From the NCBI RefSeq assembly GCF_900107995.1, contig NZ_FNUM01000007.1:64501-128500 (forward strand): 64,000 bases of DNA. Reading direction: 5' to 3'. The notes under the pieces are model-generated. The model was not told the DNA's origin and did not search any database. It saw only the letters and a program-made list of their open reading frames with translations. Shown here piece by piece: positions 5,446 through 59,769 of the stretch; within the stretch, counting starts at the first letter, position 1; every line of letters starts with the position of its first letter. The DNA is from Alcanivorax sp. DSM 26293 (GTDB lineage: Bacteria; Pseudomonadota; Gammaproteobacteria; Pseudomonadales; Alcanivoracaceae). A program made the translations under genes and the position numbers.

Positions 5446-5612
5446 CAGTTAACAGTTGATAGTGGACAGTTGACAGCGTCGCGGGATAAGCCCGGTCAGC
5501 TTCTGAGACGCAAGAGGCCGCGCCCATAAGCCTGGGCGCGGCCTCATACGTTCCAAAATCAACAACCTCGCCCGCGCAGCTGTCAATTATCAACTGTCCA
5601 CTGTCAACTGAG
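5446..5612. repeat. Bipartite heptad-repeat/hairpin element between hrcA and grpE
   Basis: Left arm of four 7-bp units (CAGTTAA, CAGTTGA, TAGTGGA, CAGTTGA) at 5446-5473. A 13-bp perfect GC-rich stem (GAGGCCGCGCCCA / complement, loop TAAGCC) at 5514-5545. Right arm of inverted units (TGTCAAT, TATCAAC, TGTCCAC, TGTCAAC) at 5581-5608, starting one base triplet after the hrcA stop. The hairpin core and its ACGCAAGAGG flank are nearly identical to the element at 40640-40800. It fills most of the hrcA-grpE gap and probably limits read-through. Confidence 0.8.
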
Positions 5613-5613
5613 G

Positions 5614-6663
5614 TTAAAGCTGGGTCAGGGCCGCCGAAAGGATTTTGGCGGTGATATCCACGGTGGGAATGACCTTTTCGTAATCCATGCGCGTGGGGCC
5701 GACCACGGCGAGGACGCCCACCGGGCCGTTATCCGCCTTGTAGGGGGCGGAAATCAGCGAGTAATCCTCGAACGGCTGGAAGCCGGATTCCCGGCCGATG
5801 AAAATCTGCACCCCGTCCGCCTTCATGGAGCGCTCCAGCAGATGCAGGATATCGCGCTTGTGATTAAAGGCGTCGAACAGGTCCCGCAATTGATGCAGAT
5901 TGTCCGCTTCCGCGGACTTGAGCAGGTTGGATTCGCCAGAGACCACATAATCCGAGCTCTCCGGCTCACTGCGCAGGGCCTTGTCGGCTACCTCCATGGC
6001 AGTACGCATCAACACATCCATCTGCGCCCGGTCCGCGTTCATGGTGTTCAGCAGGCCATCGCAGATGCTGTTCAGATCGCAGCCGCCATAGGTGTGATTG
6101 ATATAGTTGGCGGCCTGGCGCAATTCTGCTTCGTCGTAGTCCCGATCGGTATGAATGATGCGGTTCTGCACCTCGGAGCGGTTGACCACCAGCACCACCA
6201 GCACCCGCTTGCCCGATAACGGCAAGAATTCCACCTGCCGAAGGGTGGTCACCTCCCGGCGTGGCACCGCCACCAACCCGGCCATGCGGGTCAGCTCCGC
6301 CAGGGTCCGTGACGCCTGGGCAATCAGCTCCTGGGGGGATTGCTCCGGGGCCAGCAGCTGGCGCAACTCCTTTTTCAGGGACTTGTGATCCGGGCGCTCC
6401 ATGACACTGGAGGCCAGCAAGGAATCCACATACAGCCGGTAGCCCAGTTCCGTGGGGACACGACCGGCAGAGGTATGAGGGCTGGCCAGTACGCCCAGAT
6501 CCTCCAGCTCCGCCATGATGTTACGGACAGTGGCCGGGCTCACCGTCAGTCCGCTACCCGCTGCCAGCGTCTTGGAACCCACCGGCTGCCCATCGCGGAT
6601 ATGACGCTCCACCAGCGCCATCAGCAGTCGTTGTTTGCGTTCGTTGAGATCCAGCTTCGTCAT
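5614..6663 (-). CDS. hrcA: Heat-inducible transcription repressor HrcA
   Basis: 349 aa, normal length. HrcA represses heat-shock genes at CIRCE operators and needs GroE to stay folded. The N-terminal winged helix contains LTVSPATVRNIMAELEDLG and the following HTSAGRVPTELGYRLYVD, both family signatures; the C-terminal end reads GPTRMDYEKVIPTVDITAKIL. A TATAAT -10 candidate lies 32-37 bp upstream (6695-6700). No CIRCE motif (TTAGCACTC-N9-GAGTGCTAA) is visible upstream of hrcA, grpE or dnaK, so its targets here may lie elsewhere, such as groESL. Confidence 0.97.
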   Translation of the reverse strand: MTKLDLNERKQRLLMALVERHIRDGQPVGSKTLAAGSGLTVSPATVRNIMAELEDLGVLASPHTSAGRVPTELGYRLYVDSLLASSVMERPDHKSLKKELRQLLAPEQSPQELIAQASRTLAELTRMAGLVAVPRREVTTLRQVEFLPLSGKRVLVVLVVNRSEVQNRIIHTDRDYDEAELRQAANYINHTYGGCDLNSICDGLLNTMNADRAQMDVLMRTAMEVADKALRSEPESSDYVVSGESNLLKSAEADNLHQLRDLFDAFNHKRDILHLLERSMKADGVQIFIGRESGFQPFEDYSLISAPYKADNGPVGVLAVVGPTRMDYEKVIPTVDITAKILSAALTQL

Positions 6664-6804
6664 AGCGGTATATGTAACAGAAAATCAGGACGACATTATA
6701 TAGGGTTATCGTCAGGAGTTGAGCGGGGCTTACACTCACGCCCGGAATCCCCTACTATTGGAAACACTGACCAAACGAACAGTTGTTACCACAAGGATGT
6801 CACC

Positions 6805-7323
6805 ATGACCGACAGCAACAACCCCTACCAGAGCCCCGCCGCCGAAGCGCCACCTCACCGGTCGGCGGACAATGCGGTGTTAGCCAGCCGCTGGCACCGA
6901 TTTTTCGGCGCCCTCATTGATGGCCTGGTCCAGCTTGCCATTATTGCCCCCATCGTGTTTTTTTCCGGCGCCTGGGCCGACATGATGGCCAATAGCGGCG
7001 TGCTCGATCTGACCACCACCCTGGTCTGGTTTATCGTCGGCGAAGTGATCTTCCTGGCCGTGCAGGGCTGGCTGCTGTTCAATCGCCAGCAGACAATCGG
7101 CAAATGGCTGCTGGGCATGAAAATCGTCGGCATGGAGCAGAACGCGGTGCCTGTCGGTAAACTGTATGGCCTGCGCTACCTGCTGTTTCACGTGCTGGCT
7201 CAGGTGCCCGGCGTCAATCTGATCATGCTGATTGACCCGCTAATGATCTTCCGCGGTGATCGCCGCTGCCTGCATGACTTACTGGCCGGCACCCAGGTAA
7301 TACAGGCCCCGGCCAACCGCTAG
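6805..7323 (+). CDS. RDD family membrane protein, 172 aa
   Basis: The start MTDSNNPYQSPAAE follows AAGGATG. After a soluble Pro-rich leader, RWHRFFGALIDGLVQLAIIAP carries the Arg and Asp signature of the RDD domain, followed by three or more hydrophobic segments (about 40-65, 80-100, 125-150) and the second conserved GKWLLGMKIVG box. RDD proteins are inner-membrane proteins of varied or unknown function, some linked to ion transport. It is divergent from hrcA and 34 bp upstream of recN, so it may share transcription with recN. Confidence 0.85.
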   Translation: MTDSNNPYQSPAAEAPPHRSADNAVLASRWHRFFGALIDGLVQLAIIAPIVFFSGAWADMMANSGVLDLTTTLVWFIVGEVIFLAVQGWLLFNRQQTIGKWLLGMKIVGMEQNAVPVGKLYGLRYLLFHVLAQVPGVNLIMLIDPLMIFRGDRRCLHDLLAGTQVIQAPANR

Positions 7324-7357
7324 TCGCCACACTGTCTGCCCGTTTCGGAGAGATACC

Positions 7358-9025
7358 ATGCTGACCCATTTGAGCGTTCGTCACTTTGCCACCGTGGACC
7401 AGTTGGAGCTGGAGCCGGAAAACGGTCTCACCGTGATCAGCGGGGAAACCGGGGCGGGCAAATCGGTAATCATTGATGCCCTGGGCCTGACCCTCGGCGA
7501 CCGGGCCGACTCCAGCATTGTCCGTCACGGCCATGACCGGGCGGAAGTGCTCGCCACCTTTGATCTCAGCGACAACCCGGCCGCTCGCCAATGGCTGGCC
7601 GACCGGGAGCTGGACGATGATAACCAGTGTCTGCTGCGCCGCACCGTGCGTGCCGATGGACGCTCACGGGCCTACGTGAATGGCACCCCCACCCCCCTGG
7701 CGGAAGTGCGTGAGCTCGGCGAACGGCTGATCAGCATCCACAGCCAGCACGAGCACCAGGCACTGATGAAAAAGGACGCTCACCGGCAGCTTCTCGACAA
7801 CTTCGCCGAGGCCCGGGAGCTGGCCAACACCGTCCGCGATCACTGGCGCACCTGGCAAAAAGCTCGCCGCGCCCACGACGACGCCCTGAATCAGGCCCGC
7901 GAGCAGAACGAAAAGGAGGAGCTGCTGCGCTTCCAGCTGGAAGAGCTGGATAGTCTGGCCCTGCAGGAAGGCGAACTGGAGCAGCTGGAACAGGAACAAC
8001 AACGGCTTGGCAATGCGGAAAGTCTGATTCGTACTTGCCAGCAGTCCCTGAACGCGCTTTATGAGGGCGAGGACGGCACCTGCAACGACCATCTGAGCCA
8101 GGTCAGCCACTGGCTGGACGAGGCCCGCAATCAGGATGAAGCCCTGGCCACCATTGCCGACACCGTGGAGTCTGCCCGCCTGCAGGTGGAGGCCGCCGCC
8201 GACGACCTGCGGCATTACCTGGAACGGCTGGACCTGGATCCGGAACGCCTGGCCCAGGTGGAAGAACGGTTGAGCCAGAGCTACACCCTGGCACGCAAGC
8301 ACCGCATCCGCCCGGAAGAGCTGGTGGAACACCATCGCCAACTGCTGGCGGAATCCGACGCCCTGGGCAATGTGGACGCGCACCTGCATGCCCTGTCTGA
8401 GCAAGAAGCTGCGGCCCAGCAGCAGTACATGGACAGCGCCCGCAAGCTCAGCAAGGCCCGCCGCACCGCCGCCCAGACTCTTACCCAGCAGGTTCAGAAA
8501 CAGCTCACCGCCCTGGGCATGAAAGCGGCCAAACTGGACGCCCAGCTAGGCGAATGCGCCCCTGGCGCCGATGGTCTGGAAGAGGTGGAGTTCCTGTTCT
8601 CTGCCAACCCCGGCCAACCCCTGAAACCGCTTGGCAAAGTGGCCTCCGGCGGGGAACTGTCACGGGTAAGCCTGGCCATCCAGGTGATCTGCGCCCGCAA
8701 CCTGACCGTGCCGAGCCTGGTGTTCGATGAGGTGGATGTGGGCGTGGGCGGCGGCGTGGCCGAGATCGTCGGCCGCCTGCTGCGCGAACTGGGCGGCCAC
8801 GCCCAGGTGCTGTGCATCACCCACCAGCCCCAGGTAGCCAGCCAGGGTCACCAGCACTGGCAGGTGCACAAGATTCAGGGGGACGACACCACCCACACCC
8901 GTATCCAGGGGCTGGACGACAACGCGAGAATCGAAGAGCTGGCGCGCATGCTGGGCGGCGTGGAAATCACCGAATCCACCCGCAACCACGCCAAAGAGAT
9001 GCTGAGCAAGGCCCAGGCAGCCTAG
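7358..9025 (+). CDS. recN: DNA repair protein RecN
   Basis: 555 aa, full length. SMC-like ATPase for double-strand break repair by homologous recombination. Walker A GETGAGKS at about residues 29-36, coiled-coil arms rich in Glu/Gln/Leu (about 150-370), then the ABC signature SGGELSRVSLAIQVI and Walker B LVFDEVDVGVGG in the C-terminal lobe. RBS GGAGA precedes the ATG. Its TAG stop is followed directly by a heptad-repeat element. recN beside fur and bamE is the Pseudomonas-type order. Confidence 0.98.
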   Translation: MLTHLSVRHFATVDQLELEPENGLTVISGETGAGKSVIIDALGLTLGDRADSSIVRHGHDRAEVLATFDLSDNPAARQWLADRELDDDNQCLLRRTVRADGRSRAYVNGTPTPLAEVRELGERLISIHSQHEHQALMKKDAHRQLLDNFAEARELANTVRDHWRTWQKARRAHDDALNQAREQNEKEELLRFQLEELDSLALQEGELEQLEQEQQRLGNAESLIRTCQQSLNALYEGEDGTCNDHLSQVSHWLDEARNQDEALATIADTVESARLQVEAAADDLRHYLERLDLDPERLAQVEERLSQSYTLARKHRIRPEELVEHHRQLLAESDALGNVDAHLHALSEQEAAAQQQYMDSARKLSKARRTAAQTLTQQVQKQLTALGMKAAKLDAQLGECAPGADGLEEVEFLFSANPGQPLKPLGKVASGGELSRVSLAIQVICARNLTVPSLVFDEVDVGVGGGVAEIVGRLLRELGGHAQVLCITHQPQVASQGHQHWQVHKIQGDDTTHTRIQGLDDNARIEELARMLGGVEITESTRNHAKEMLSKAQAA

Positions 9026-9075
9026 AAAGGCAGTGAACAGTTAATAGTGAATCGTTAACAGCGGCGCGCGGGCAG
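9026..9075. repeat. Half heptad-repeat element after recN
   Basis: Directly after the recN stop: AAAGG, then 7-bp units CAGTGAA, CAGTTAA, TAGTGAA, TCGTTAA (9031-9058), then CAGCGGCGCGCGGGC. This matches one arm of the elements near hrcA, leuA and serB. The usual hairpin and second arm are missing here; a different palindrome (9128-9163) follows. Confidence 0.75.
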
Positions 9076-9127
9076 AGGGTCAGATAACCGGCAGCGCCCA
9101 GGCAGCGCACAAACGTCGGCGCACCAC

Positions 9128-9163
9128 GTAGGGTGGATGACGCCTGCGGCTAATCCACCCTAC
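9128..9163. repeat. Short dispersed palindrome, GTAGGGTGGAT type
   Basis: 11-bp perfect arms GTAGGGTGGAT / ATCCACCCTAC around GACGCCTGCGGCTA. Palindromes of this kind recur between genes in many bacterial genomes (recollection, not a search). It lies in the convergent recN-fur gap, where a hairpin could end transcripts from both sides. Confidence 0.65.
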
Positions 9164-9190
9164 CCAGGCCACCTGGGCCCGGGCGCGGGA

Positions 9191-9737: not shown

Positions 9738-9767
9738 CGCCCGAACACTTAGTGAAGTCGAAAAACC

Positions 9768-10265: not shown

Positions 10266-10274
10266 CAGCCTGGA

Positions 10275-13482: not shown

Positions 13483-13839
13483 GGGGCCGACCTGGATTCG
13501 ACGCCGGTACTGAATTCTGTGGTGCATGCCGAGAAGGTCACGAGTCTCGTAAAACATTTGTGGCACACTAAAGTAATCGCAAACGACGATTCTTACGCAC
13601 TAGCAGCTTAAACCCTGCTTATCGCCAATCGACCCTGCCTGTGGGGAAGAGCGGCGAGCATCGCAACACAGGCTCGCAGCAAAGTCCGCCCCGGATGGCG
13701 CTGTTAAAACCCTTAGGGGCTCGGCTTTCACGTCCTGCCAGTTGGGCTGTGAAGGCTTAAATCAATAAACATGGCTAAGCATGTAGATCTGCAGATGGAT
13801 TGCTGACGGACGCGGGTTCGATTCCCGCCGGCTCCACCA
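13483..13839 (+). ncRNA. ssrA: tmRNA (SsrA)
   Basis: 357 nt. The 5' end GGGGCCGACCTGGATTCGACG pairs with the 3' end CGGCTCC before an encoded ACCA, forming the tRNA-like acceptor stem with one G-U pair; GGTTCGATTCCCGCC is the T-arm. The tag frame starts at 13579 and reads ANDDSYALAA, stop 13609-13611, the typical proteobacterial tag ending recognised by ClpXP. The RNA works with SmpB, encoded upstream, to rescue stalled ribosomes. The 3' end is a frequent integration site, but no integrase or attL-like duplication is visible here. Confidence 0.97.
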
Positions 13840-32900: not shown

Positions 32901-32998
32901 AAGAAGCCGCGCCCTGCCAGGGGCGCGGCTTCTTCTTCTCGGCTCAATCAACGCGAGCCCGCGCCGCTGTTAACTATTCACTATTAACTGTTCACTGC
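32901..32998. repeat. Hairpin plus heptad arm overlapping the leuA 3' end
   Basis: 14-bp perfect stem AAGAAGCCGCGCCC / complement, loop TGCCAG (32901-32934), then GCGAGCCCGCGCCGC and inverted heptads TGTTAAC, TATTCAC, TATTAAC, TGTTCAC (32968-32995). The leuA stop (32970-32972) lies within the first unit, so the repeat encodes the last residues of LeuA. The hairpin probably terminates transcripts from both sides. Confidence 0.8.
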
Positions 32999-34649
32999 CT
33001 TCCTGTACCCGGCCCACCGCCGACAGGATCGCCTGCAAGGCAGCCGCAGTGGTATCCGCCGCGGTGGCCACGGCACTCTGCACCGTGTCCCCCACCTGCA
33101 CCCGCACACAGGCCATGGCGTTGGCTTCGGTATTGTCACCCAATGAATACTCATCGAAGGACACTACCTTCACCTCGCCACCGATACGCCGGTTGAGCGC
33201 ATCCACCAATGCCGACATGGCCCCATCTCCGCGGCCGGACAACAGGGTCACCGGCTGGCTGGCATCGCCAATGCTGATCTGGGCCTGCACCTGGTCGTTG
33301 CTGCGGTTCAGGTCATAGGAGCGCAACATCCACCCCATGGGCACGTTCAGGTAATCACTGTTGAAGCGACGATGTACCCGCTCGCTGGTGATCTCGCCAC
33401 CATCTTCCTCCGCATCTTTCTGCACCACCCCGGCCAGTTCCTGCTGCAACCAGCGCGGCAGGTCGATACCGAAATCCCGCTCCAGCACGTGGGCGACACC
33501 GCCCTTGCCGGACTGGGAATTGATCCGCACCACTTCCTCGTAGCGACGGCCCACATCCGCCGGGTCGATGGGCAGATAGGCCACCTGCCAGATATCCCCC
33601 TCTTGATAGCGGGCCAGGCACTTGCGGATAGCATCCTGATGACTGCCGGAGAAAGCGCTGAAGACCAGATCGCCCGCATAGGGATGGCGCGGGTGGGTCT
33701 GGATATCGGTGATCTCCTCCACCAGGGCAACAATCTCCTTCATCCGCGAAAAGTCGATTTGCGGATCGATGCCCTGGCTGTACAGGTTCATCCCGGCGGT
33801 GACCAGATCCATGTTACCGGTCCGTTCGCCGTTGCCCAGCAAGGTGCCTTCCACCCGATCCGCACCGGCCATGACAGCCATTTCCGCCGCCGCCACACCA
33901 CAGCCCCGGTCATCGTGGGTATGCACGCTGATGATCACGTGCTCGCGATGCTGAATGTTTTCATGCACCAGTTCCACCTGGTCGGCAAACACATTGGGCG
34001 TGCTCACCTCCACCGTGGCCGGCAAGTTGATGATCACCCGCTGACCCTGGTCCGGGCGCCATACCGCATTCACCGCATCGATCACTTCGATGGCGAATTC
34101 GGTTTCCGTGGCACTGAAGGTTTCCGGGGAATACTGGAAGCTCCAGTGGGTTTCCGGCTGCTTCTCGGCACAGGCTTTCACCCAGCCGGCAGCACGCTCG
34201 GCAATGGTCTTGCAGCCGGCCTTGTCCACGCTGAACACCTGCTCGCGGAAGGTGGGCGAGGTGGCGTTGTAGATATGCACGATGGCATTTTTTGCGCCCT
34301 TGAGTGACTCAAAGGTACGGGCAATCAATTCTTCCCGGGCCTGGGTGAGCACCTGAATGTGCACGTCATCCGGCACCAGGTCTTCCTCAATCAGGGCCCG
34401 GCAGAAATCAAAATCAATCTGGCTGGCCGAGGGGAAGCCCACCTCGATTTCCTTGAAACCCAGCTCCACCAGCATCTGGAAGAAGCGGCGCTTCTGCGCC
34501 ACGGACATGGGCTTGATCAGCGCCTGGTTGCCATCACGCAGATCCACCGCCGCCCACAGCGGCGCTTTCTCGATACGCTGGCTGGGCCAGCGACGGTCGG
34601 GTTTGTAGATGACCGGAAAGGGCTGGTATTTGCGATGATCAAAGCTCAT
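32970..34649 (-). CDS. leuA: 2-isopropylmalate synthase
   Basis: 559 aa, long form as in Pseudomonas. Condenses acetyl-CoA and 2-ketoisovalerate, first step of leucine synthesis. AVDLRDGNQALIKPM is the metal/substrate loop, HTHDDRGCGVAAAEMAVMAGADRVEGTLLGNGERTGN is the second signature, and the C-terminal leucine-feedback domain follows GGEVKVVSFDEYSLG. The last residues, SEQLIVNS, come from the heptad repeat, so the natural C-terminus was replaced or extended. A terminator-like hairpin lies just before the start. A Lrp-type gene is divergent. Confidence 0.98.
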   Translation of the reverse strand: MSFDHRKYQPFPVIYKPDRRWPSQRIEKAPLWAAVDLRDGNQALIKPMSVAQKRRFFQMLVELGFKEIEVGFPSASQIDFDFCRALIEEDLVPDDVHIQVLTQAREELIARTFESLKGAKNAIVHIYNATSPTFREQVFSVDKAGCKTIAERAAGWVKACAEKQPETHWSFQYSPETFSATETEFAIEVIDAVNAVWRPDQGQRVIINLPATVEVSTPNVFADQVELVHENIQHREHVIISVHTHDDRGCGVAAAEMAVMAGADRVEGTLLGNGERTGNMDLVTAGMNLYSQGIDPQIDFSRMKEIVALVEEITDIQTHPRHPYAGDLVFSAFSGSHQDAIRKCLARYQEGDIWQVAYLPIDPADVGRRYEEVVRINSQSGKGGVAHVLERDFGIDLPRWLQQELAGVVQKDAEEDGGEITSERVHRRFNSDYLNVPMGWMLRSYDLNRSNDQVQAQISIGDASQPVTLLSGRGDGAMSALVDALNRRIGGEVKVVSFDEYSLGDNTEANAMACVRVQVGDTVQSAVATAADTTAAALQAILSAVGRVQEGSEQLIVNS

Positions 34650-36199: not shown

Positions 36200-36241
36200 C
36201 TGCTCGCTCTGGAGCGAGGACGAGCAACCAGACGCGAGGCC

Positions 36242-36306
36242 CGAGTTTCGAGTTGCGAAAACACCAAACAGGAAACCCTTATTTGCCTTTCGCGTCTCGA
36301 AACTCG
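36242..36306. repeat. 19-bp inverted repeat between flavodoxin and enoyl-CoA hydratase genes
   Basis: CGAGTTTCGAGTTGCGAAA (36242-36260) and its inverse with 2 mismatches (36288-36306). The arms are built of 7-bp steps (CGAGTTT, CGAGTTG, CGAAAAC), like the other heptad elements but with a different unit. It lies 17 bp from the hydratase stop. Confidence 0.65.
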
Positions 36307-36322
36307 CTTCCCGCTACTGCTG

Positions 36323-39410: not shown

Positions 39411-40646
39411 GTGCGCGAGATCATTCTGATTCAGGTATCCGGCAGTGACCGCCCCGGTCTGACCGCCGCTTTCACCCGGATTCTGGCCCGTTATCGGCTC
39501 AATATCCTGGATATCGGCCAGGCCGTGATCCACGACACCCTGTCGCTGGGTATCCTGGTGGAAACTCCGCCGGACGCGGAATCCTCAGCGGTGCTCAAGG
39601 ATCTGTTATTTGAAGCCCACAAGCTGAACATCAATGTGCGCTTCCGTCCCATCGATGAGGACCGCTATGAAGAATGGGTGGCCGGCCAGGGCAAGGACCG
39701 GCACATTATCACCCTGTTGGCGCGCAAGATTACCGCTGAGCAACTGTCCGACGTGACCGCCACGGTGGCAGACAACGGCCTCAACATCGACAGCATCGCC
39801 CGCCTCTCCGGCCGGGTGCATCTGGAGGGAGAATCCCTCAACGAGGACAGCCGCGCCTGTATCGAGATATCCGTGCGCGGAGAACCGAGGGACGGCGAAG
39901 CCATGCGTGCAGCCTTCCTCAACATTGCCAACGAACGCAACCTGGACATCGCCTTCCAGCGGGACAGCGCCTTCCGCCGCAACCGGCGTCTGGTGGTGTT
40001 TGATATGGATTCCACCCTGATCCGTTCCGAAGTGATCGACGAGCTGGCCATGGAAGCCGGGGTGGGCGAAGAAGTGGCGGAAATCACCGAGCGCGCCATG
40101 CGCGGCGAACTGGATTTCAATGAGAGCTTCAAGGCCCGGGTGGCCCTGCTCAAGGGGCTGGATGAAGGCGCCCTGGAGCGGGTACGCGAGCGCATCCAGC
40201 TCACCGAAGGGGCGCAACGGCTGATCAGCACCCTGCGCGCCCTGGGCTATCGCACGGCCATCCTGTCCGGCGGTTTCACCTGGTTCGGGCAATGGCTGCA
40301 ACAGTTGCTGGGCATCGACTATGTCTACGCCAACGAGCTGGAAATCGAGAACGGCCAGGTCACTGGCCGGGTGGTCGGCCAGATCGTCAATGGCCAGCGC
40401 AAGGCCGACCTGCTCAAGCAGATCGCCACCCAGGAAGGCATCAGCCTGGAGCAGGTGATCGCCGTGGGCGACGGCGCCAACGACCTGCCCATGCTCGGCG
40501 AAGCCGGCCTGGGCATCGCCTTCCGCGCCAAACCCCTGGTCAAACAAAACGCCGAACAGGCCATCTCGACCCTGGGCCTGGACGGGATTCTCTATCTGAT
40601 CGGGGTCAGGGACAAGGATCAGGCGGAGCTGCTTAAGAGCAATTAA
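39411..40646 (+). CDS. serB: Phosphoserine phosphatase SerB
   Basis: 411 aa. Last step of serine synthesis. The start is GTG at 39411 (VREIILIQVSGSDRPGLTAA) after GGGAG, matching the Pseudomonas start MREI; the longer reading from 39222 is not family-like. Two N-terminal ACT domains (about 1-180), then the HAD phosphatase: VVFDMDSTLIRSEVIDELA with nucleophile Asp, ILSGGFTWF, and AVGDGANDLPML. The stop codon lies inside a heptad repeat unit. Confidence 0.97.
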   Translation: MREIILIQVSGSDRPGLTAAFTRILARYRLNILDIGQAVIHDTLSLGILVETPPDAESSAVLKDLLFEAHKLNINVRFRPIDEDRYEEWVAGQGKDRHIITLLARKITAEQLSDVTATVADNGLNIDSIARLSGRVHLEGESLNEDSRACIEISVRGEPRDGEAMRAAFLNIANERNLDIAFQRDSAFRRNRRLVVFDMDSTLIRSEVIDELAMEAGVGEEVAEITERAMRGELDFNESFKARVALLKGLDEGALERVRERIQLTEGAQRLISTLRALGYRTAILSGGFTWFGQWLQQLLGIDYVYANELEIENGQVTGRVVGQIVNGQRKADLLKQIATQEGISLEQVIAVGDGANDLPMLGEAGLGIAFRAKPLVKQNAEQAISTLGLDGILYLIGVRDKDQAELLKSN

Positions 40647-40800
40647 TAGTTAATAATTAATAATTCGCGGTTTTGGTCTGTCTTTTCTGAAACGCAAGAG
40701 GCCGCGCCCATAGCTTGGGCGCGGCCTCTTATGTTTAAAGACAAGGCAAAGCTGTTTCGCGCAACTATTAATTATTCATTATTAACTATTCATTGCCTTT
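40640..40800. repeat. Complete heptad-repeat/hairpin element between serB and fimX-like gene
   Basis: Left units CAATTAA, TAGTTAA, TAATTAA, TAATTCG (40640-40667; the first contains the serB stop). 15-bp perfect stem AAGAGGCCGCGCCCA / complement, loop TAGCT (40696-40730). Inverted units AACTATT, AATTATT, CATTATT, AACTATT, CATTGCC (about 40763-40797), ending against the fimX-like stop. Convergent genes both end in the element. Hairpin and flank match the hrcA-grpE element. Confidence 0.85.
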
Positions 40801-42888
40801 CTACGCCGACTCCGGAATTTGCAACGAATCCATCGGTGCCTGCAGATAGTAGCCCTGCAGGTAATCCACTCCACCCAGGCTCCACAGGGCCTGCATCTGG
40901 GCGGCGGATTCGACGAAACCTACCACGGTCCTGCGGTTGCTTTCTTTTACCTGTTTGACGATATCGGTGAGCCGTTGGCGGCCTTCCGCCTTGGACACGT
41001 CCTGGGTGAAAGAGCCTTCGAATTTCACCATGGTGGCCGGAATATGCTGGAACAGCTTGAACGGATCCAGGCCGCCACCAAAGCGACTGATGGAGATACC
41101 GCAACCGGCACTTTTCATCTTCTCGGCAAACACGCCCGCCTGTTTCAGGTAGGTGGTGGCATCGCCCTCGGTTAGCTGGAAGGTCAGCCGTGAACCATCC
41201 ATCTTGGCCGCACGCATGGCCTTGAGCAGCCAGTCCGCCAGGGATACATCCGCCAGGGAGCCCCCGTTGATGTTGAACACCAGCTTGACGGGCTCACTCA
41301 TCGCAGCCGCCGCCCGCATGGCGTTGAGTACCACCCAGCGATCAATCTTGCCTACCAGGCCCTGCTCAGCGGCCACCGGCATGAACTCCCCGGCTTCCAT
41401 GGCTTCACCCTGCTTCTGCGGCAGATCCACAAACACCTCGAAGAGATGCTCACTGTCATCTTCAAGGTTCATCAGCGGTTGATAATGCAGTTTGAAACTG
41501 CCTTGCTCCAACGCCTGACGCAGCAACATGACAATGGCTTCGGAAGAGCCTGCAGCCACCTCGTCCATGGGATCATGCACCTTGATGCTGTTGCCCTGGC
41601 CACCGTTTTCCCGCTGGGCCTGGTTACAGCATTTCAGTGCCGTGGTCAGGGTGCCCTGGCCACTGCGGGCATCCTCGCGAACAAAGGCGACCCCCACACT
41701 GGCCGTCACATGGATCGTCTTGGCCGCCACTTCCGGCATCAGCCCTTCAATACCGGCGCGCAGACTCTCGGCCAGTGCCTCGGCCTCATCGGTATCCGCA
41801 ACCGGCAACAAGACGGCAAAATCCTCACCGTCTACCCGGGCCAGTTTGGCATCTCCCACCTGGCCACCCAGCCAGTTGGCAACCGCACGGAGAATATCAT
41901 CGGCACCATCGATACCCACCGAAGACTGGTGTTGCTCAAAGTCGTCCAGGCGGAGATACAGCACCGTCGCCAGTTGCCCTTCGCGAGCCGCCTCGGCCAC
42001 CGCATCATCAAGCTGGTCCATAAACCACTTGCGGGCAAACAGGCCGGTAACCTGGTCTTTCTGGCTCATTTCCTGGAGCCGTTCCTGCATTTCGCTCTCG
42101 TCCACGCCGCCGGCGCGAATCACGATCTGGGTGCAGGCCTCACCATCATAGGTGCTGGGCGAGAAGGTAAAGGACGCATCAAACTCTTCGCCATCGGTAT
42201 TGACGCCCTTGCATTCCAGTTCCTGGGTCTGGCTTTCATCCTGGGCACGACTACGCAGTAGCTGTTTGAGCTTGTCATGGTCCGCCGCCGACACCATGTC
42301 CATGATAGGAACGCCGGCCAGATCGTCAGCGCTCTCATAGCCAAACAGCTCCACATAGTTGTCGTTGGCGTGAATATGCATGCCATCGAGCACATAGGCG
42401 ATGGCGTCACGGCTCTGATCCATCAACAGGGCCAACCGCTTTTCCGCATCGTGACGGGCAATCTCGGAGTGCTGGAGCTCCTTGCGCAGACGCAGGTTCT
42501 CGACCACCCGGTCCACCATCAGGGTAAGCATATCCCTGTCATTACCGGGCACCACGCCGCTGGCCCCCTGCTGGAGGGCCGCCTTTACGGTCTCGGCAGA
42601 AAAGGTATTTTCCAGCAGGATCACTGGCACCGCCTTGCCCAAACGCTTGAGGTGGGCCATGGCAGATTCAAAACTGCCATCGCCGAAGGAAGGCCTGCAC
42701 AGCATCAACTCCCAGGCGCCACCTTTCAACGCGCGCAGCAAATCATCTTCGCCCAGGGCCAGTTGTGCCCGGGTTGCCCGGCCGGCATTGCGCAGCATAT
42801 TCATCAGCTGCTCGGCCTCATCTTGGGAATCATGGGCGATCAGTAGGCGGAGATTGTCCAGGGCATAGCTCATGGTGTGACGACTCAT
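40801..42888 (-). CDS. FimX-like protein: REC-PAS-degenerate GGDEF-degenerate EAL
   Basis: 695 aa (or 690 from the second ATG at 42873). N-terminal response-regulator-like domain without a clear phosphoacceptor (about 5-135), PAS (about 150-270), GGDEF domain with DGEDF instead of GGDEF (about 285-425), and EAL domain with EVF at the EAL site (about 440-685) and SRFGGGLDPFKLF. Both catalytic motifs are altered, as in Pseudomonas FimX, a c-di-GMP receptor for type IV pilus assembly. serB next to fimX is the Pseudomonas order. Function by analogy. Confidence 0.88.
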   Translation of the reverse strand: MSRHTMSYALDNLRLLIAHDSQDEAEQLMNMLRNAGRATRAQLALGEDDLLRALKGGAWELMLCRPSFGDGSFESAMAHLKRLGKAVPVILLENTFSAETVKAALQQGASGVVPGNDRDMLTLMVDRVVENLRLRKELQHSEIARHDAEKRLALLMDQSRDAIAYVLDGMHIHANDNYVELFGYESADDLAGVPIMDMVSAADHDKLKQLLRSRAQDESQTQELECKGVNTDGEEFDASFTFSPSTYDGEACTQIVIRAGGVDESEMQERLQEMSQKDQVTGLFARKWFMDQLDDAVAEAAREGQLATVLYLRLDDFEQHQSSVGIDGADDILRAVANWLGGQVGDAKLARVDGEDFAVLLPVADTDEAEALAESLRAGIEGLMPEVAAKTIHVTASVGVAFVREDARSGQGTLTTALKCCNQAQRENGGQGNSIKVHDPMDEVAAGSSEAIVMLLRQALEQGSFKLHYQPLMNLEDDSEHLFEVFVDLPQKQGEAMEAGEFMPVAAEQGLVGKIDRWVVLNAMRAAAAMSEPVKLVFNINGGSLADVSLADWLLKAMRAAKMDGSRLTFQLTEGDATTYLKQAGVFAEKMKSAGCGISISRFGGGLDPFKLFQHIPATMVKFEGSFTQDVSKAEGRQRLTDIVKQVKESNRRTVVGFVESAAQMQALWSLGGVDYLQGYYLQAPMDSLQIPESA

Positions 42889-45073: not shown

Positions 45074-46102
45074 CTAGCCCGCCAATACGGTCTTTGCCGG
45101 CTTCCCCGGCTCTTCCCGTGACAACCTCGGCACCAGAAAGCCGGGTAAGCGGCCACGCAGCTGCTCATGAAGTTGCATAGCGCGCGAATCTGCCACGGCA
45201 AAATGCGCCGCCCCCTGCACGGCATCCAGTTGATGCAGGTAATACGGCATCACACCCGCCTCATGGAGGCGATCCGACAACGCTTCCAGCGTATCAACAC
45301 AATCATTCACTCCGGCAAGCAACACACTCTGATTCAGCAGGGTGATCCCTTCACGCCGCCACTGACGGCAGCGCTCCACCAGCGCAGGACTGATTTCCCG
45401 GGGATGATTGGCATGCAGTACCAGGGCCGTCTGCCAGCGGGGGGCCGACAGCAATGTCAGCAACGATTCATCCAGCCGTTCCGGAATCACTACCGGGGTA
45501 CGGCTGTGAATGCGCAGCCGACGCAGATGGGGAATCTCCGCCAGCGCCGCCAGCAGTTCCTGTAAACGGCGATTGTTCAGGGTCAGGGGGTCGCCGCCAC
45601 TGAGGATCACCTCGCGGATATCCGGGCGTGACGCCAGCCATTCCAGCGACTGATCCCAACGCTTGCCGCTGAGGTGACTCTGATAGGGAAAATGCCGGCG
45701 AAAACAGTAACGGCAGTGGACTGCGCAAGCGCCGGTGACCACCAGCAGTGCGCGGCCATGGTACTTGTGCAGTAGACCGGGAACCGGAGTGTGGGCAGCT
45801 TCCTCCAGCGGATCACTGCTGTATCCCTCCTCCTCGCGCAGCTCCGCCGGCACACTCATCACCTGCCGCAACAGCGGATCATCCGGGTTGCCCGGCTCCA
45901 TCAGGCGCACATAACCACGGGGCACACGCAGGGGGAAATCCTGCGCCGCTTCCAGCATCTCGGGCAGGGATTCCGCCTCCAGCTGAAGCAGGCCGAGAAG
46001 CTCCGCCGGATCAGTAATCAGGTCCGCCTGCTGGCGCTGCCAGCCGGGCAACTCCCAACCGTCCCTTTCCTGCGTTATCATGGGGGTCTGCTGATGTTTC
46101 AT
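45074..46102 (-). CDS. epmB: EF-P (R)-beta-lysylation protein EpmB, lysine 2,3-aminomutase
   Basis: 342 aa. Radical-SAM, PLP enzyme that turns L-alpha-lysine into (R)-beta-lysine for EF-P. GDCAVHCRYC-type cluster here TGACAVHCRYCFRRHFPY with CxxxCxxC; LSGGDPLTLNN and HANHPREI are family segments; ADLITDPAELLGLL is the usual N-terminus. The ATG at 46102 is kept; ATG 46081 is an alternative. Divergent from efp-epmA, so all three pathway genes share one region. Confidence 0.96.
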   Translation of the reverse strand: MKHQQTPMITQERDGWELPGWQRQQADLITDPAELLGLLQLEAESLPEMLEAAQDFPLRVPRGYVRLMEPGNPDDPLLRQVMSVPAELREEEGYSSDPLEEAAHTPVPGLLHKYHGRALLVVTGACAVHCRYCFRRHFPYQSHLSGKRWDQSLEWLASRPDIREVILSGGDPLTLNNRRLQELLAALAEIPHLRRLRIHSRTPVVIPERLDESLLTLLSAPRWQTALVLHANHPREISPALVERCRQWRREGITLLNQSVLLAGVNDCVDTLEALSDRLHEAGVMPYYLHQLDAVQGAAHFAVADSRAMQLHEQLRGRLPGFLVPRLSREEPGKPAKTVLAG

Positions 46103-46350
46103 TTGCGTCTCTGCTGGAGTTCATTTTTTCGTCCGGCAAGGCGGAAGGCGTGCGGCATAGTCTTTCATATGTAAGTGACTGACAACGCAGCTGGGCGGAA
46201 AAAGGGGCCCAGCCCTTCGGGTTGTGCCTGCAAGCGCACCACTCGTCGTTACAAGTCGTTCATTTGAATAAAACCAAACATCTCTCCTTGTGCCTAGATT
46301 GGTACGCTTGCAGGCACAACAGAGACGCAAATGAAACATTAGCAAACCCC
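46083..46350. repeat. Nested inverted duplications in the epmB/efp divergent region
   Basis: Outer pair: 31 bp at 46320-46350 match the inverse of 46083-46113 with 2 mismatches (includes the ATGAAACAT of the epmB start). Inner pair: 21 bp at 46300-46320 match the inverse of 46221-46241 with 1 mismatch (GTTGTGCCTGCAAGC). On the efp side the two matches form one continuous 51-bp block; on the epmB side they are split by 107 bp. This suggests duplication of the epmB 5' region in reverse, then an insertion in one copy. Confidence 0.8.
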
Positions 46351-48100: not shown

Positions 48101-48190
48101 AAAAAGCCGCCCCAACTTCCGGGCGTGGCCTCTTTCCTTTCAGCTCGCAACACGATCGCCCGCGTTGCAACTTTTAACTTGCAACTGCCC
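48101..48190. repeat. Heptad-type element after the 48191 hydrolase gene
   Basis: Inverted 7-bp units GTTGCAA, CTTTTAA, CTTGCAA then CTGCCC (48164-48190), adjoining the hydrolase stop, next to GATCGCCCGCG and an imperfect GC-rich stem with AAAAAAGCCGCCCC (48101-48137). A sequence-diverged member of the family seen near hrcA, recN, leuA and serB. Confidence 0.65.
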
Positions 48191-49108
48191 TTACGCCACC
48201 GCCGGCTGCGCCACTGAATTCGCTCTGGCCGCCGTCTCCGCAATCAGGTCGCCAATCCGGTCAATGGCTGACGGCGGGAAGTCGTGGCCCATGCCGGGAA
48301 TAATCACCAGCTTGGCGCCGCGAATATGGCGGGCGGAGGCCTTGCCGCCGGCGGGACGGATCAGCGGGTCGGCGCCGCCGTGGATCACAGTGGCCGGACA
48401 GCGGATCTGTTTAAGGTGTTTGGTCAGGGCACCAGTGGCCAGCACGGCCAGGAACTGATTGCGAATCCCGCGCGGGTTGATGCCGCGGGCCCAACACTCC
48501 CGATACATGGCTTCCAGTTCGTCACGGCCCTGGGGCAGGGTGCCGGCCAGCTTGCCCATCATCTCCAGACCAAACGCCACAAACTGGTCTTCCGTTTCCA
48601 CCTTCACTCCGGGGGCCACCAGGGTCTTGAGGGCGGCGGGTTTTGGTAACGGCAGGTAGGGGCTGTTGTTACTGGACATGATGGAGGTCAACGACAGCAC
48701 CCGGTCAGGATGGGTGGCCGCCATCAACTGGCTGATCATGCCACCCATGGAGGCACCCACAAAATGCGCCCGTTCGATGTTCAACGCATCCAGCAGCCCC
48801 ACGGTGTCGGCCACCATGTCGTGCAGGGTATAGGCACTGTCTACCGACATCCCCACGGTATAACGCAGCAACGCCACCAGCGGCCCCTGCTTGAACGGTT
48901 TGCGAATGCGGGTGGATTTGCCCACATCCCGGTTATCGAAACGGATCACCCGATAGCCACGCTCAACCAGGATATCCAGCAGCGGTTCCGGCCAGAACAC
49001 CATCTGTGCCGAGAGCCCCATGACAAAGACAATGGGCTCCCCGTTTTCCGGGCCACGACTCTCGTAAAAAAGCTCGATTCCGTTACTGCTCACCGTGCCA
49101 GACTGCAT
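48191..49108 (-). CDS. Alpha/beta hydrolase
   Basis: 305 aa. Lid-bearing hydrolase: PIVFVMGLSAQMVFW oxyanion strand, RVIRFDNRDVGKSTR, nucleophile elbow VGASMGGMISQLMA (Ser near 122), Asp in HGGADPLIRPAGG and His in IPGMGHDFPP. Substrate unknown; perhaps an ester or a lipid. Downstream of the TetR gene by 95 bp on the same strand, so probably under its control. Confidence 0.92.
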   Translation of the reverse strand: MQSGTVSSNGIELFYESRGPENGEPIVFVMGLSAQMVFWPEPLLDILVERGYRVIRFDNRDVGKSTRIRKPFKQGPLVALLRYTVGMSVDSAYTLHDMVADTVGLLDALNIERAHFVGASMGGMISQLMAATHPDRVLSLTSIMSSNNSPYLPLPKPAALKTLVAPGVKVETEDQFVAFGLEMMGKLAGTLPQGRDELEAMYRECWARGINPRGIRNQFLAVLATGALTKHLKQIRCPATVIHGGADPLIRPAGGKASARHIRGAKLVIIPGMGHDFPPSAIDRIGDLIAETAARANSVAQPAVA

Positions 49109-55874: not shown

Positions 55875-55885
55875 CGTCCCCGATA

Positions 55886-55919: not shown

Positions 55920-55928
55920 GCCCGGTTC

Positions 55929-55966: not shown

Positions 55967-55993
55967 CTGCCGCCACAACCCACAGGATAATCC

Positions 55994-57196
55994 ATGAACC
56001 CACTATTGGACGGCCTGAAGGTCCTTGACCTGTCCCGGCTGCTGCCCGGCCCCTTCTGCTCCCTGACCCTGGCCCAGCTGGGTGCCGAGGTAATCAAGAT
56101 CGAGGAGCCGGATGGCGGCGATTATGCCCGGGAACTGTCCCCGGAATTGTTCGATATCGTCAACCGGGGCAAACAGTCCCTGACCCTGGATCTTCGCCAG
56201 CCCGACGACGTGGAACGGTTCAAGGCACTGGTAAAAGGCGCTGACGTGGTCCTGGAATCCTTTCGCCCTGGCGTCATGGATAAGCTGGGCTGTGGCTACG
56301 ACACTCTCAAGGCCATCAACCCGCAACTGGTCTATGCCTCTCTCACCGGTTACGGCCAGACCGGCCCCTATGCAGACCGCCCCGGCCATGATCTGAATTA
56401 CCTGGGCTATGCCGGCGTGCTGGACCAGACCGGTCTGCCCGGCAAACGCCCGGCCATGTCCAACGTGCAGATCGCCGACCTGGCCGGCGGCGCCCAGAAC
56501 TGCGCCATCGGCATTCTTGCGGCGGTGATGGGCGCCCGTCAGAGTGGCGAAGGCTGCTGGGTGGATGTGGCCATGCTGGACGGTGCCCTGGCGCTGCAGA
56601 GCATGGCCCTGGCCACCCACCACCAGCACGGCAACAGCCAGCCCCGTGGCAAGGACATGCTCACTGGCGCCCTGGCCAACTACAACGTGTACCGCTGCCG
56701 GGACGGCAAGTACCTAGCCGTGGGCTCCCTGGAGCCCAAGTTCTTCATGGCATTCCTGAAGGAAATCACGCCAGGATTTCTCTGGAAGAAAAAAACCGGA
56801 AAGAAGAGAAAGACATCGGGGCATTCCAGTGAAAAACCACAATCTTCCAGCGGCGGCAACGATGCCCTGACCAAACTGGCCGCCGACCCGAAGAAACTAC
56901 GCCGCCTGATGGTGCCGGTGCGCTGGGCCATTCAACTGATTCTGCTTACCCGCACAAGGGATCAGTGGGATGCGCGCCTCGCCCACAAGGACACCTGCGT
57001 GTCCGGCATCCTCACGCTGGAAGAGGCCCTGGCCAATGAACAGGTGCAGGCCCGCGGTCTGGTCACGAACAACCACAAGGGCCCGGTATTGCGCTCACCC
57101 ATCCGCTTTGTGGGCGCCCAGACCCGGGATGGCGACAGTCCCGCCCTGGGCGAGCATAACCCGCTGTTTACGAATCAGGAAAAACGCCGGGCCTGA
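55994..57196 (+). CDS. CaiB/BaiF-family (class III) CoA-transferase or alpha-methylacyl-CoA racemase, with inserted basic region
   Basis: 400 aa. VLDLSRLLPGPFCSLTLAQLGAEVIKIE and GYGQTGPYADRPGHDLNYLGYAGVL are the AMACR/CaiB core; the Asp in HDLNY matches the racemase/transferase active site. Around residues 259-297 it has a Lys/Ser-rich stretch (WKKKTGKKRKTSGHSSEKPQ) coded by A-rich DNA, unlike the GC-rich flanks, before the domain resumes at TRTRDQWDARL. Likely handles branched-chain acyl-CoA; it follows fadE. Confidence 0.88.
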   Translation: MNPLLDGLKVLDLSRLLPGPFCSLTLAQLGAEVIKIEEPDGGDYARELSPELFDIVNRGKQSLTLDLRQPDDVERFKALVKGADVVLESFRPGVMDKLGCGYDTLKAINPQLVYASLTGYGQTGPYADRPGHDLNYLGYAGVLDQTGLPGKRPAMSNVQIADLAGGAQNCAIGILAAVMGARQSGEGCWVDVAMLDGALALQSMALATHHQHGNSQPRGKDMLTGALANYNVYRCRDGKYLAVGSLEPKFFMAFLKEITPGFLWKKKTGKKRKTSGHSSEKPQSSSGGNDALTKLAADPKKLRRLMVPVRWAIQLILLTRTRDQWDARLAHKDTCVSGILTLEEALANEQVQARGLVTNNHKGPVLRSPIRFVGAQTRDGDSPALGEHNPLFTNQEKRRA

Positions 57197-57278
57197 GCCC
57201 GGTTCTGACCCGATCAACCCTGCTACTGTCTGGCAAAACGTCATACCGTAGTGAAAAAAGAACAAATACGGAAAACCC

Positions 57279-58169
57279 ATGAGCATTCAGGCCAAAATCA
57301 TCAAGGCGGTGACCCGCCGCACCATCAAGCGCCACGGACTCAACCAGGAGCAATTGGTTCGTCACCTGCGCAAGGCGTTTAACAACACGCCAACGGTTAC
57401 CCTGCTGCCCCGCAAGGTGACACTCAAGCAGATCCGCGAGCCCCGGTTCGAGGGTGACCACCTGAGTGTCAGCAATCCGTCCACCACCGTGCTTTACCTG
57501 CATGGTGGCGCCTATATCGGCGGGGTAACCCGGACTTACCACAACCTGGCCGGGCGCCTGGCCAAGCAGCTGCATGGCGAAGTCTATCTGCCGGTATACC
57601 CGTTTGCGCCGGAGCACCCGTTCCCGGAAGCCGTGAACCGGGTCATGGAGGCCTACGAATACCTGCTGGCCCTGGGCAAGAACCCCAGCGACATCGTCAT
57701 CGCCGGGGATTCCGCCGGTGGCGGCCTGACCCTGGCCACCCTGCTGCACATCCGTGACAAGGGCTTGCCCCAGCCTCGCTGTGCGGTGCTGTTTTCTCCG
57801 GCCAGTAATGCGTCACCGGATGACAAGGTCATGGACGCCCTGGACCCCAGCGATGCCATGTTGTCCGCGGATATCATTCGCACCGTGATTGATATCTACA
57901 TCCCCAACAAAGAGGACCGGACACACCCCTATGCCTCTCCTTGCCTGGGCGACTACCAGGGCGTCTGCCCCATGCTGATTACCGCCAGCACCGACGAGGT
58001 GCTCTATGCCGACGGCAAACAGGTTCGAAAGGCTGCGGAAAAAGCCGGGGTGCGGGTGAAATGGATCGAACGGTCGGGGCTGTTTCATGTCTGGCCCATC
58101 ATGGTTCCCTTCCTGCCGGAGGCCAACCGGGACCTGAAACGCGTGGTCGAGTTTATCCGCACCGCCTGA
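57279..58169 (+). CDS. HSL-family (type IV) esterase/lipase
   Basis: 296 aa. Hormone-sensitive-lipase-type hydrolase: oxyanion LYLHGGAYIGG (HGG), nucleophile elbow IAGDSAGGGLTLATLL (Ser in GDSAG), catalytic Asp in STDEVLYAD and His in GLFHVWP. No signal peptide, so cytosolic or membrane-associated. Near the beta-oxidation genes; may release acyl chains from esters (inference). Confidence 0.94.
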   Translation: MSIQAKIIKAVTRRTIKRHGLNQEQLVRHLRKAFNNTPTVTLLPRKVTLKQIREPRFEGDHLSVSNPSTTVLYLHGGAYIGGVTRTYHNLAGRLAKQLHGEVYLPVYPFAPEHPFPEAVNRVMEAYEYLLALGKNPSDIVIAGDSAGGGLTLATLLHIRDKGLPQPRCAVLFSPASNASPDDKVMDALDPSDAMLSADIIRTVIDIYIPNKEDRTHPYASPCLGDYQGVCPMLITASTDEVLYADGKQVRKAAEKAGVRVKWIERSGLFHVWPIMVPFLPEANRDLKRVVEFIRTA

Positions 58170-58236
58170 TTTTTTTGGTCATTGCCGCCACCTGAACACT
58201 GGCGTTAACTGATTATTCCAACAACAGGGAGGCGGC

Positions 58237-59466
58237 ATGACCGAACTGCCCCGCATTCATCAGGACGATTATTGCGACGAGGATCTGCCCCGGCTTACCC
58301 AGCCCTGGTGGCAGACTTTGCCCACGGGTTTTCATGCCCTGCCGGATCACTTTCTGGCAGACAACGATACCCGCTGGCGGATCGACTACACCGCCGGCAT
58401 CGACACAGTGGCGCGGACCGGGCTGGCCAGCATGGCCGGCGCCGCTGCCCTGCCCGCCACACTGAATCTCTCCCGGCAAAAGGAAGAACGGGCGCTGGTG
58501 GATTTTTACCGCCCCTTTCTCCAGGAAGACGATCCCAATACGTTCTTTACCCGGCCCACACAGACGGCAAACATTGAACGTATTCCGGTGGCCCCCTATC
58601 ACTTTCAGCCGGAGGATGGTGAGGCCCATACCCTGCGCTTTCGCTCACCCTTCGAGCCCAGAAACCCGGCGCTGCGTGACCGTTACCTGAGCCATCGCCG
58701 CAACCGCACCGCCTGGGCCCAGCACTGGCGTCACCATGGCGAACCGCGCCCGACACTGATCATGATCCACGGCTTTGTGGCCGACCCCTACTGGCTCAAT
58801 ACCCGCTGGCTGGCGCTGCCCTGGTTTTACAAGCAGGGCTTCGATGTCTTGCTCTACACCCTGCCGTTCCATGGACGCCGCAAGGGCCGCCTTGCCCCGT
58901 TCAGCGGCGCACAGTTTTTCAGCCAGGGCATGGCCCTGCTCAACGAAACGTTCGCCCATGCCATCCATGACCTGCGTCTGTTCATGGATTATTTGCGTGC
59001 CCAGGGCACGCCGGCCATGGGCGCCACGGGGATCTCTCTCGGCGGTTACACCACCGGACTCCTGGCCGCACTGGAAGACGACTTGGCCTTTGCCATCCCC
59101 AATGTGCCACTGGTCAGCATCATGGACCTGATGCAGAGCTGGTTCCCGATCAACCTGCAGGTGGGCCTGATGAAAAAAGTCTACGGCACGGACCTGCAGG
59201 GCCTGCGCGAGATTACCGCCTTGCATTCCCCCCTGACCTGGCCATGCAAGGTGCCGCCCAAAGGGCGTATGGTCATCGGCGGTGCCGGCGATCGCTTCGC
59301 CCCGCCCAAACACAGTCACCTGCTGCACCAGCACTGGGGACATTGCGACCTGCACTGGTTCCCGGGCAACCATCTGCTGCATCTGGATCAGGGGCTTTAT
59401 CTGAAAGCCATGCGGGATTTCATGAAGGCGGCGCTGGGGGAGACGTCAGCGGCGGTGAATGCCTGA
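58237..59466 (+). CDS. Alpha/beta hydrolase, ABHD18/DUF2048-like
   Basis: 409 aa. Long N-terminal region (about 1-165) precedes the hydrolase core: RPTLIMIHGFVADPYWLN, VLLYTLPFHGRRKGR, GATGISLGGYTTGLLAAL (Ser in GISLG), GAGDRFAPP and NHLLHLDQG with His. GGGAGG precedes ATG. Family of poorly known membrane-associated lipases; call by motif. Confidence 0.82.
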   Translation: MTELPRIHQDDYCDEDLPRLTQPWWQTLPTGFHALPDHFLADNDTRWRIDYTAGIDTVARTGLASMAGAAALPATLNLSRQKEERALVDFYRPFLQEDDPNTFFTRPTQTANIERIPVAPYHFQPEDGEAHTLRFRSPFEPRNPALRDRYLSHRRNRTAWAQHWRHHGEPRPTLIMIHGFVADPYWLNTRWLALPWFYKQGFDVLLYTLPFHGRRKGRLAPFSGAQFFSQGMALLNETFAHAIHDLRLFMDYLRAQGTPAMGATGISLGGYTTGLLAALEDDLAFAIPNVPLVSIMDLMQSWFPINLQVGLMKKVYGTDLQGLREITALHSPLTWPCKVPPKGRMVIGGAGDRFAPPKHSHLLHQHWGHCDLHWFPGNHLLHLDQGLYLKAMRDFMKAALGETSAAVNA

Positions 59467-59692
59467 ATCCCCCTTCCCCGTTGGAGCCATGCTTGCCCCC
59501 AAGGGGATCTATGGGGTTGGGGTAGCATCCTGGCGGAGTGCTTTAGGTAGACCTGTCGAGTTTTGAAATGCCTGATCACCCTGCGGGCGATTTCCGCGCA
59601 AGCGCGGTTCGCCATGCAAGCATAGCTCCCACAGCGGCTTCGTAGATATCTCGGAACCTGAGGAACTTTTGGCCTTGCCCCATCCAACCAGC
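59467..59692. other. Intergenic region with a degraded REP-like unit
   Basis: No gene seen. GCCATGCAAGCATAGCTCCC near 59610-59629 resembles a REP unit of the GGGAGC type, and a palindromic CCGCGCAAGCGCGG lies near 59592-59606. The heptad array follows. Confidence 0.5.
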
Positions 59693-59769
59693 GTAGCTTG
59701 TAGCTTGTAGCTTGTAGCTTGTAGCTTGTAGCTTGTAGCTTGTAGCTTGTAGCTTGTAGCTTGTAGCTC
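59693..59769. repeat. Perfect 7-bp tandem array, GTAGCTT x 10 plus one variant
   Basis: Ten exact GTAGCTT units (59693-59762) and GTAGCTC (59763-59769), ending against the stop codon of the DUF502 gene. The long exact run suggests recent expansion by slippage. Same 7-bp period as the other stop-codon-linked elements. Confidence 0.95.

Follow-up and report, generated by a model that had tools for sequence, protein, structure and literature searches.

Intergenic palindromes whose arms are arrays of 7-bp repeats (heptads) form a large family in Alcanivorax sp. DSM 26293, here described from a stretch of 64,000 nucleotides (assembly GCF_900107995.1, contig NZ_FNUM01000007.1, positions 64,501 to 128,500 of the forward strand) that we refer to as the window. 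At 28 orthologous sites read in two congeners, most elements have given way to another in the same position, with both arms and core exchanged, and some of the cores are inverted. The elements are copied as whole units, their arms are typed and they are placed behind stop codons. We lean, with modest confidence, towards reading them as non-autonomous mobile palindromes of about 160 bp, akin to REPINs (doublets of repetitive extragenic palindromic (REP) sequences forming hairpins) and to miniature inverted-repeat transposable elements (MITEs), with heptad arrays as ends and a hairpin terminator as middle, serving as a two-way terminator at gene ends.

Arm types and copying of whole units

The initial annotation of the window had proposed a stop-linked family with a constant period and a changing unit, and had named few or no other copies in the genome as evidence against it. 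Such a family exists throughout the genome and is far larger than the window: two element queries returned 90 and 63 genome matches, 153 in total, at 65 distinct sites. Allowing up to 3 mismatches, the CTTGTAG pattern matched the genome 143 times, many matches overlapping in arrays, against 0 for its reversed control, and the CTTGCAA pattern 33 times against 9 control matches. In a sample of 522,780 bp, biased because it joins the window to stretches chosen for holding matches, and with genes called by a home-made gene caller, 184 intergenic arms were found at period 7 compared to 0-4 at each of the periods 5, 6 and 8-12. An orientation could be given to 180 of the 184, yielding 177 merged arms that comprise 63 inverted pairs and 51 solo arms.

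The unit of about 160 bp consists of about 4.5 heptads, CGCG, a spacer of about 20 nt and a GC-rich hairpin, followed by the mirror image. A complete copy reads from the stop codon through, often, a few bases (e.g. AAAGGCA) into a heptad array of 31-33 bp, CGCG, the spacer and the stem. The stem (for example CTGAAACGCAAGAGGCCGCGCCCA) closes a short loop, and inspection shows the common stem to begin with CTGAAACGCAAGAGGCC. The middle of some copies is a different hairpin or an ordinary terminator, and other copies are solo arms. Folding of 112 core strands gave a mean minimum free energy of -38.1 versus -25.3 after base shuffling. The arms at C18:152229-152524 (L070), one left and one right, flank a pair of GC hairpins separated by a REP-like repeat; fusion or interruption of an element may explain this arrangement. 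Some long CTTGTAG arrays contain stretches of N, probably assembly gaps (C7:197690, C10:84275, C18:203465). Further heptad types include GTCGGAC, TGTCGCG, GACGCCT-like and CTAGCTT/CGAGCTA units (genome C20:165609 and C15:23653; congener junctions 34649 and 36199).

Arms form discrete types common to many copies. Left and right arm share their type in 57 of the 63 elements; the average over 10,000 shuffles was 13.2 and the highest value 25. Identity between the arms within an element is 0.917 and between same-type arms of different elements 0.923, compared to 0.685 for arms of different elements in general. Since identity within an element is no higher than between same-type arms elsewhere, the arms have not been copied from each other locally, and local arm-to-arm correction is ruled out as the source of their likeness; the arms of one element match because the unit is typed. 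One 29-mer arm has 19 exact copies among the genome matches listed, and identical multi-variant arrays are found again in many elements.

Whole units are copied as well. A comparison of 88 regions for copy pairs revealed two, C7:118190/C7:579918 (92.2 % identical over 167 bp) and C10:410361/C10:498279 (91.9 % over 160 bp). In both pairs the identity includes the spacers and the homology ends at the outer heptads; identity thus runs from arm end to arm end, which shows that entire units were copied. The two C10 sites (sites 12 and 14 below) carry elements of another type with unrelated cores in one congener; in another congener one of these sites is without an element and the second has an element of a third type.

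The initial annotation had attributed the changing unit to slippage or template-switch expansion instead of plain copying. On this explanation replication slippage builds the arms on the spot, and template switching at the hairpin copies the first arm into the second, which would account for the constant period with a changing unit, the long perfect arrays and the inverted arms; strand switching could also yield core inversions. The recurrence of discrete types and exact multi-variant arrays, the equal identity of arms within and between elements and the duplication of whole units at about 92 % identity all argue against it. Local growth as the main origin is therefore already largely refuted, and we consider it very improbable; slippage fits only long perfect arrays such as the one at 59693-59769 of the window.

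Turnover at orthologous sites and placement behind genes

Orthologous sites were compared at a random draw of 28 of the 62 eligible paired sites, by locating both flanks in two congeners and reading the junctions. In 29 of the 84 resulting three-way comparisons, the three per site not being independent of each other, one or both sides lacked an element. Thus the unrelated, non-periodic sequence in relatives that the initial annotation had named as a refuting result does occur at some sites. Both sides carried an element in the other 55 comparisons. Of these, 40 had unrelated cores together with different arm types, a count whose threshold calls the cores of sites 5 and 23 unrelated though they are alike by eye (site 23 reaching only 2.6 % of the null); 11 had related cores and the same arms; 4 had inverted cores, two with the same and two with partly different arms; and unrelated cores with the same arms were found in none. 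A stricter test of the 35 comparisons with a standard hairpin defined cores as related at a level reached by less than 1 % of 351 paralogue pairs. It retained 12 related cores, 4 of which, at three sites, are inverted.

Sites 2, 4 and 10 each carry a near-identical element in two of the genomes and, at the same place, an unrelated one in the third. The junction between the convergent genes at 40646/40800 of the window is occupied in all 11 congeners examined, in one of them by an element disrupted by an insert. By eye, its arms are of AATTAAT, GTTAACA, GTTGACA or TTGATAG type across the congeners, with one mixed pair. Relative to the window, the core is inverted in G016, G014 and G013 and direct in G007, G005, G015 and G011; that of G010 is suggestive (1.4 % of the null) and those of G003 and G004 are indistinguishable from unrelated (G008 left out). 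Elsewhere, relatives have empty or short sites, namely at the window junction 32150/32180 (G016, G003, G004 and G008) and at sites 16 and 24. Where relatives lack an element, a REP-like GTAGGAGCG repeat is often visible by eye at the junction; an ordinary terminator is visible in one case. Also by eye, REP-like repeats (GTAGGAGCG...GCGAA) lie in congener junctions where the window genome has heptad elements (e.g. L180, L182 and L195; sites 7, 11, 12, 13, 18 and 19).

Mobile units could instead have inserted repeatedly and independently into empty gene ends in each lineage, with no overwriting of a resident element. The empty or short sites and the linkage to stop codons agree with this possibility. 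Full occupancy of the 40646/40800 junction and the near-identical pairs faced by an unrelated third element at sites 2, 4 and 10 do not, and we judge it quite unlikely.

The 63 arm pairs lie between convergent genes (31), tandem genes (27) and divergent genes (4), with one at an edge. Where an outer arm end faces a stop codon, it falls within -25 to +10 bp of that codon in 114 of 127 cases; if arms were spread uniformly over these gaps, 8 % would be expected there (125 arms). Ends facing a start codon fall in this range in 11 of 48 cases. Stop codons in all three sense frames were found in 0 of 29 paired AAGCTAC arms, yet 28 of the 32 stop-facing arms of this type lie within the range. This rules out stop codons in all frames as the universal reason for the arms, and the linkage does not merely arise from stops inside them. 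Arms of CGAGTTT type are the exception, with 2 of 6 in range. At the orthologous sites, elements were present in 24 of 28 convergent and 14 of 28 tandem cases (Fisher p = 0.009), site 21 of one congener, where a single arm was detected, being scored as absent.

Elements of the window

The features of the window are as follows.

5446..5476, plus strand: left arm, GTTGACA type with first unit GTTAACA, 4.4 heptads
5514..5545, no strand assigned: GC hairpin GAGGCCGCGCCCA/TGGGCGCGGCCTC, 13-bp stem, by eye
5577..5612, minus strand: inverted right arm, GTTGACA type
9030..9059, plus strand: solo left arm, GTTAACA type, 4 bp past the stop of the plus-strand gene 7358-9025
32901..32934, no strand assigned: GC hairpin, 14 pairs, with a T-rich tail on the minus strand
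32967..32997, minus strand: right arm, GTTAACA type; the minus-strand gene 32970-34649 stops within it
About 36230-36315, no strand assigned: small element without hairpin, CGAGTTT-type arms, between convergent genes; right end approximate
40635..40672, plus strand: left arm, AATTAAT type; the plus-strand gene 39411-40646 stops within it
40696..40730, no strand assigned: GC hairpin AAGAGGCCGCGCCCA/TGGGCGCGGCCTCTT, 15-bp stem, 5-nt loop; core inverted in some congeners
40761..40795, minus strand: inverted right arm, AATTAAT type; minus-strand stop codon at 40801-40803
48108..48125, minus strand: short imperfect hairpin with a T-rich tail on the minus strand
48165..48186, minus strand: degenerate right arm of TTGCAAC units; minus-strand stop codon at 48191-48193
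59693..59769, minus strand: perfect array of 10.9 GTAGCTT heptads, directly before the minus-strand stop codon 59770-59772

The 7-bp period reported for six places (5446-5612, 9026-9075, 32901-32998, 40640-40800, 48101-48190 and 59693-59769) is present at all of them. Strong self-match clusters in the window number 5 at period 7 and 0-2 at each other period from 3 to 15, the sole period-14 cluster being the 59693 array itself. Two further claims of the initial annotation need correction. The right end of 5446-5612 lies 1 bp before the minus-strand stop codon 5614-5616 (gene 5614-6663), but its left arm has its outer end 86 bp upstream of the start codon of a minus-strand gene and not at a stop. 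Inverted arms around a perfect GC hairpin of 13-15 bp are found at 5446-5612 (13 bp) and 40640-40800 (15 bp), the latter a complete element between convergent genes, whereas the hairpin of 48101-48190 is imperfect. Only a left arm is present at 9026-9075, and 32901-32998 combines a 14-bp hairpin with a right arm; no hairpin was seen at the 59693-59769 array. Read outward from the hairpin in a common register, the right arms are CTGTCAA, CTGTTAA/CTATTCA, CTATTAA/TTATTCA, CTTGCAA and CTTGTAG.

Arms are present in 6 of 6 convergent window gaps longer than 80 bp, four by the arm scan and two, missed by the scan, by Tandem Repeats Finder and eye; the scan found none in the 7 convergent gaps of 80 bp or less. 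A terminator scan lists the hairpins at 32901-32934 and 48108-48125. At the Rfam gathering score the only match in the window was the transfer-messenger RNA gene (13483-13839), and the heptad elements had none. A second dispersed repeat of about 270 bp occupies 46080-46350; it has matches elsewhere in congeners (C3 and C5 of G003, C2 of G008), and the stretch is absent from the orthologous junction in most congeners.

Distribution, known systems and interpretation

The element was found in 17 of 17 genomes of the genus, the window genome included. With up to 3 mismatches, three 29-mer arms gave 0 to 63, 0 to 43 and 0 to 62 matches per genome across these 17. A pattern of three GTKRAYA units matched at least once in 22 of 293 genomes of the order. 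Such matches were dense in 4 of 5 genomes drawn from the genus (the fifth, G002, having 3 matches, fewer than its 19 control matches) and in 3 of 4 of a sister genus, and were absent from the one genome drawn from each of three further genera of the family. Control matches were 47 against 229 pattern matches in the window genome and 94 against 191 in G197. The core query matched all 4 sister-genus genomes, including one without heptad matches, and 0 of 3 other genera.

Across phyla, the exact 29-mer GTTGACAGTTGATAGTGGACAGTTGACAG occurs in 93 public-genome stretches, of which 80 were listed and all 80 scanned by script. The listed stretches belong to Alcanivorax, Alloalcanivorax or other Pseudomonadales (58), Clostridia (15), cyanobacteria (6) and Anaerolineae (1). 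Among the arms in these 80, an inverted partner lies within 220 bp in 50 of 68 from Pseudomonadales, 7 of 15 from Clostridia, 0 of 7 from cyanobacteria and 0 of 1 from Anaerolineae. A sense frame of at least 80 codons ends nearby in 55 of 68, 11 of 15, 4 of 7 and 0 of 1, respectively, compared to 137 of 800 random positions. Clostridia copies follow the same plan around other hairpins; L217, for example, reads stop codon, AGGCA, arm, small hairpin, inverted arm. In Clostridia CSMAG_113 (L220, L227 and L239), solo arms follow a T run that in L220 is visibly the end of a hairpin, an order of arm and hairpin that is the reverse of Alcanivorax. All listed records outside Pseudomonadales are titled metagenome-assembled genome, so mis-binning is possible; their hairpins differ from the Alcanivorax hairpin. 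A few shared heptads would alone make some exact 29-mer matches likely, and it is then the shared vocabulary that needs explaining. Carriage by phage or plasmid was considered and rejected: two 29-mer arms had no exact match in viral contigs, a phage search gave no match, and one 32-base match lay on a cyanobacterial plasmid. Integron attC sites were also weighed as candidates and set aside, no search having been aimed at them.

MITEs are short, non-coding, dispersed elements with inverted terminal repeats and several subfamilies. The heptad elements share these features, with inverted terminal repeats (63 inverted pairs, 57 of concordant type) and dispersed copies whose homology ends at those repeats, as in the two pairs of about 92 % identity. 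They differ in having 7-bp arrays as ends and in being replaced in place. No target duplication was seen in alignments too diverged to decide, and no parent transposon was identified, with no systematic search made for a transposase between the arms. Intrinsic terminators are GC-rich hairpins behind stop codons that convergent genes can share. The stable GC-rich hairpin behind genes is common to both, while heptad arms and whole-unit copying set the elements apart, as their imperfect T tracts may do.

REP elements, GTAG- or CGTC-tagged, are described in excerpts of PMC3733652 as dispersed extragenic palindromes found mostly between convergent and unidirectional genes, with GTAG REP ends that often supply the stop codon of a flanking gene. 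In these respects the heptad elements resemble the REP, REPIN and bacterial interspersed mosaic element group as far as those excerpts describe it, being dispersed extragenic palindromes behind genes in convergent or unidirectional gaps that can supply stop codons. They depart from it in size (about 160 bp compared to 20-40 bp for the REP palindrome) and in the tag at the foot, the CTTGTAG arm having GTAG only within its 7-bp array, as well as in their heptad-array arms, the several arm types around one core and replacement in place. The REP-like GTAGGAGCG repeats are separate in these genomes and by eye occupy some of the same sites in congeners. TAACTGA heptamer repeats of Beggiatoaceae, cyanobacteria and Bacteroidetes are, in excerpts of PMC4679880, mostly direct and just upstream of start codons, with one inverted repeat reported. 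They share with the present elements an intergenic 7-bp repeat in short sets, mixed with related heptamers, and a scattered distribution that includes cyanobacteria (PMC4679880). By contrast with what those excerpts report, the arms here form inverted pairs around a hairpin behind stop codons (127 ends face stops, 48 starts) and consist of other heptads, CAGTTAA-type units being one base off a rotation of TAACTGA. Excerpts of PMC9788540, on small RNAs of an Alcanivorax, do not mention such elements. Among the papers listed by one open-access library, with subscription papers mostly outside its scope, no description of inverted heptad arms around a hairpin was found, and a literal text search there for six heptad strings returned two unrelated papers. 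We place the heptad elements with the mobile extragenic palindromes, though they have neither the size and tag of REP nor the plan and position of the TAACTGA repeats.

An alternative without mobility is that the elements lie in 3' untranslated regions as RNA or protein-binding parts kept by selection; a conserved factor would bind the arms, and copies would be alike because the same words are selected. In its favor, placement behind stop codons is strand-specific, retention at convergent sites is high, and distant phyla have these words around hairpins of other kinds. The copying of spacers together with the arms, the type switches and lineage bursts, and the congeners that have no element where others have one speak against it, and we regard this alternative as unlikely.

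The preferred reading, mobile palindromes that double as gene-end terminators, suggests how these observations might be connected. Units would spread through a trans-acting enzyme recognizing the arms or, possibly following breaks at the palindrome, through ectopic gene conversion between the numerous copies, and cores would flip by recombination between the inverted arms. The hairpin may end transcription in both directions, so that one element between convergent genes is predicted to end both transcripts; retention at convergent gene ends could then reflect the need for some terminator there.

Several points weigh against this reading. At sites 5 and 23 the arms differ while the core looks related by eye. 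In G005 and G015, GTTAACA arms surround a core related to the AATTAAT element of the window at 40646/40800, so arms can change while the core stays, and these arm changes on retained cores mean that units are not always replaced whole. The T tracts are imperfect: 52 of the 112 core strands have an uninterrupted stem of at least 8 pairs, and their tails average a T fraction of 0.39. The terminator scan omits the 40696-40730 hairpin. No mobilizing enzyme turned up, no search having been aimed at one, and inspection by eye of the two copy pairs and of the site 16 alignments revealed no target-site duplication, all of these alignments being too diverged to decide.

A broader version is possible but doubtful: the heptad arrays may be the recognition ends of an unrecognized class of mobile palindrome, whose enzyme would work in several phyla and overwrite resident elements behind stop codons, rebuilding gene ends from a common 7-bp vocabulary around local hairpins. 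If the elements are mobile terminators, many transcription units in these bacteria would terminate in mobile parts that can be exchanged for one another, and mobile palindromes, through their arms, would give the 7-bp repeats already noted in unrelated bacteria a concrete carrier. The mechanism is directly testable, since positions are conserved while sequences are replaced, cores are flipped and arm words are shared across phyla.

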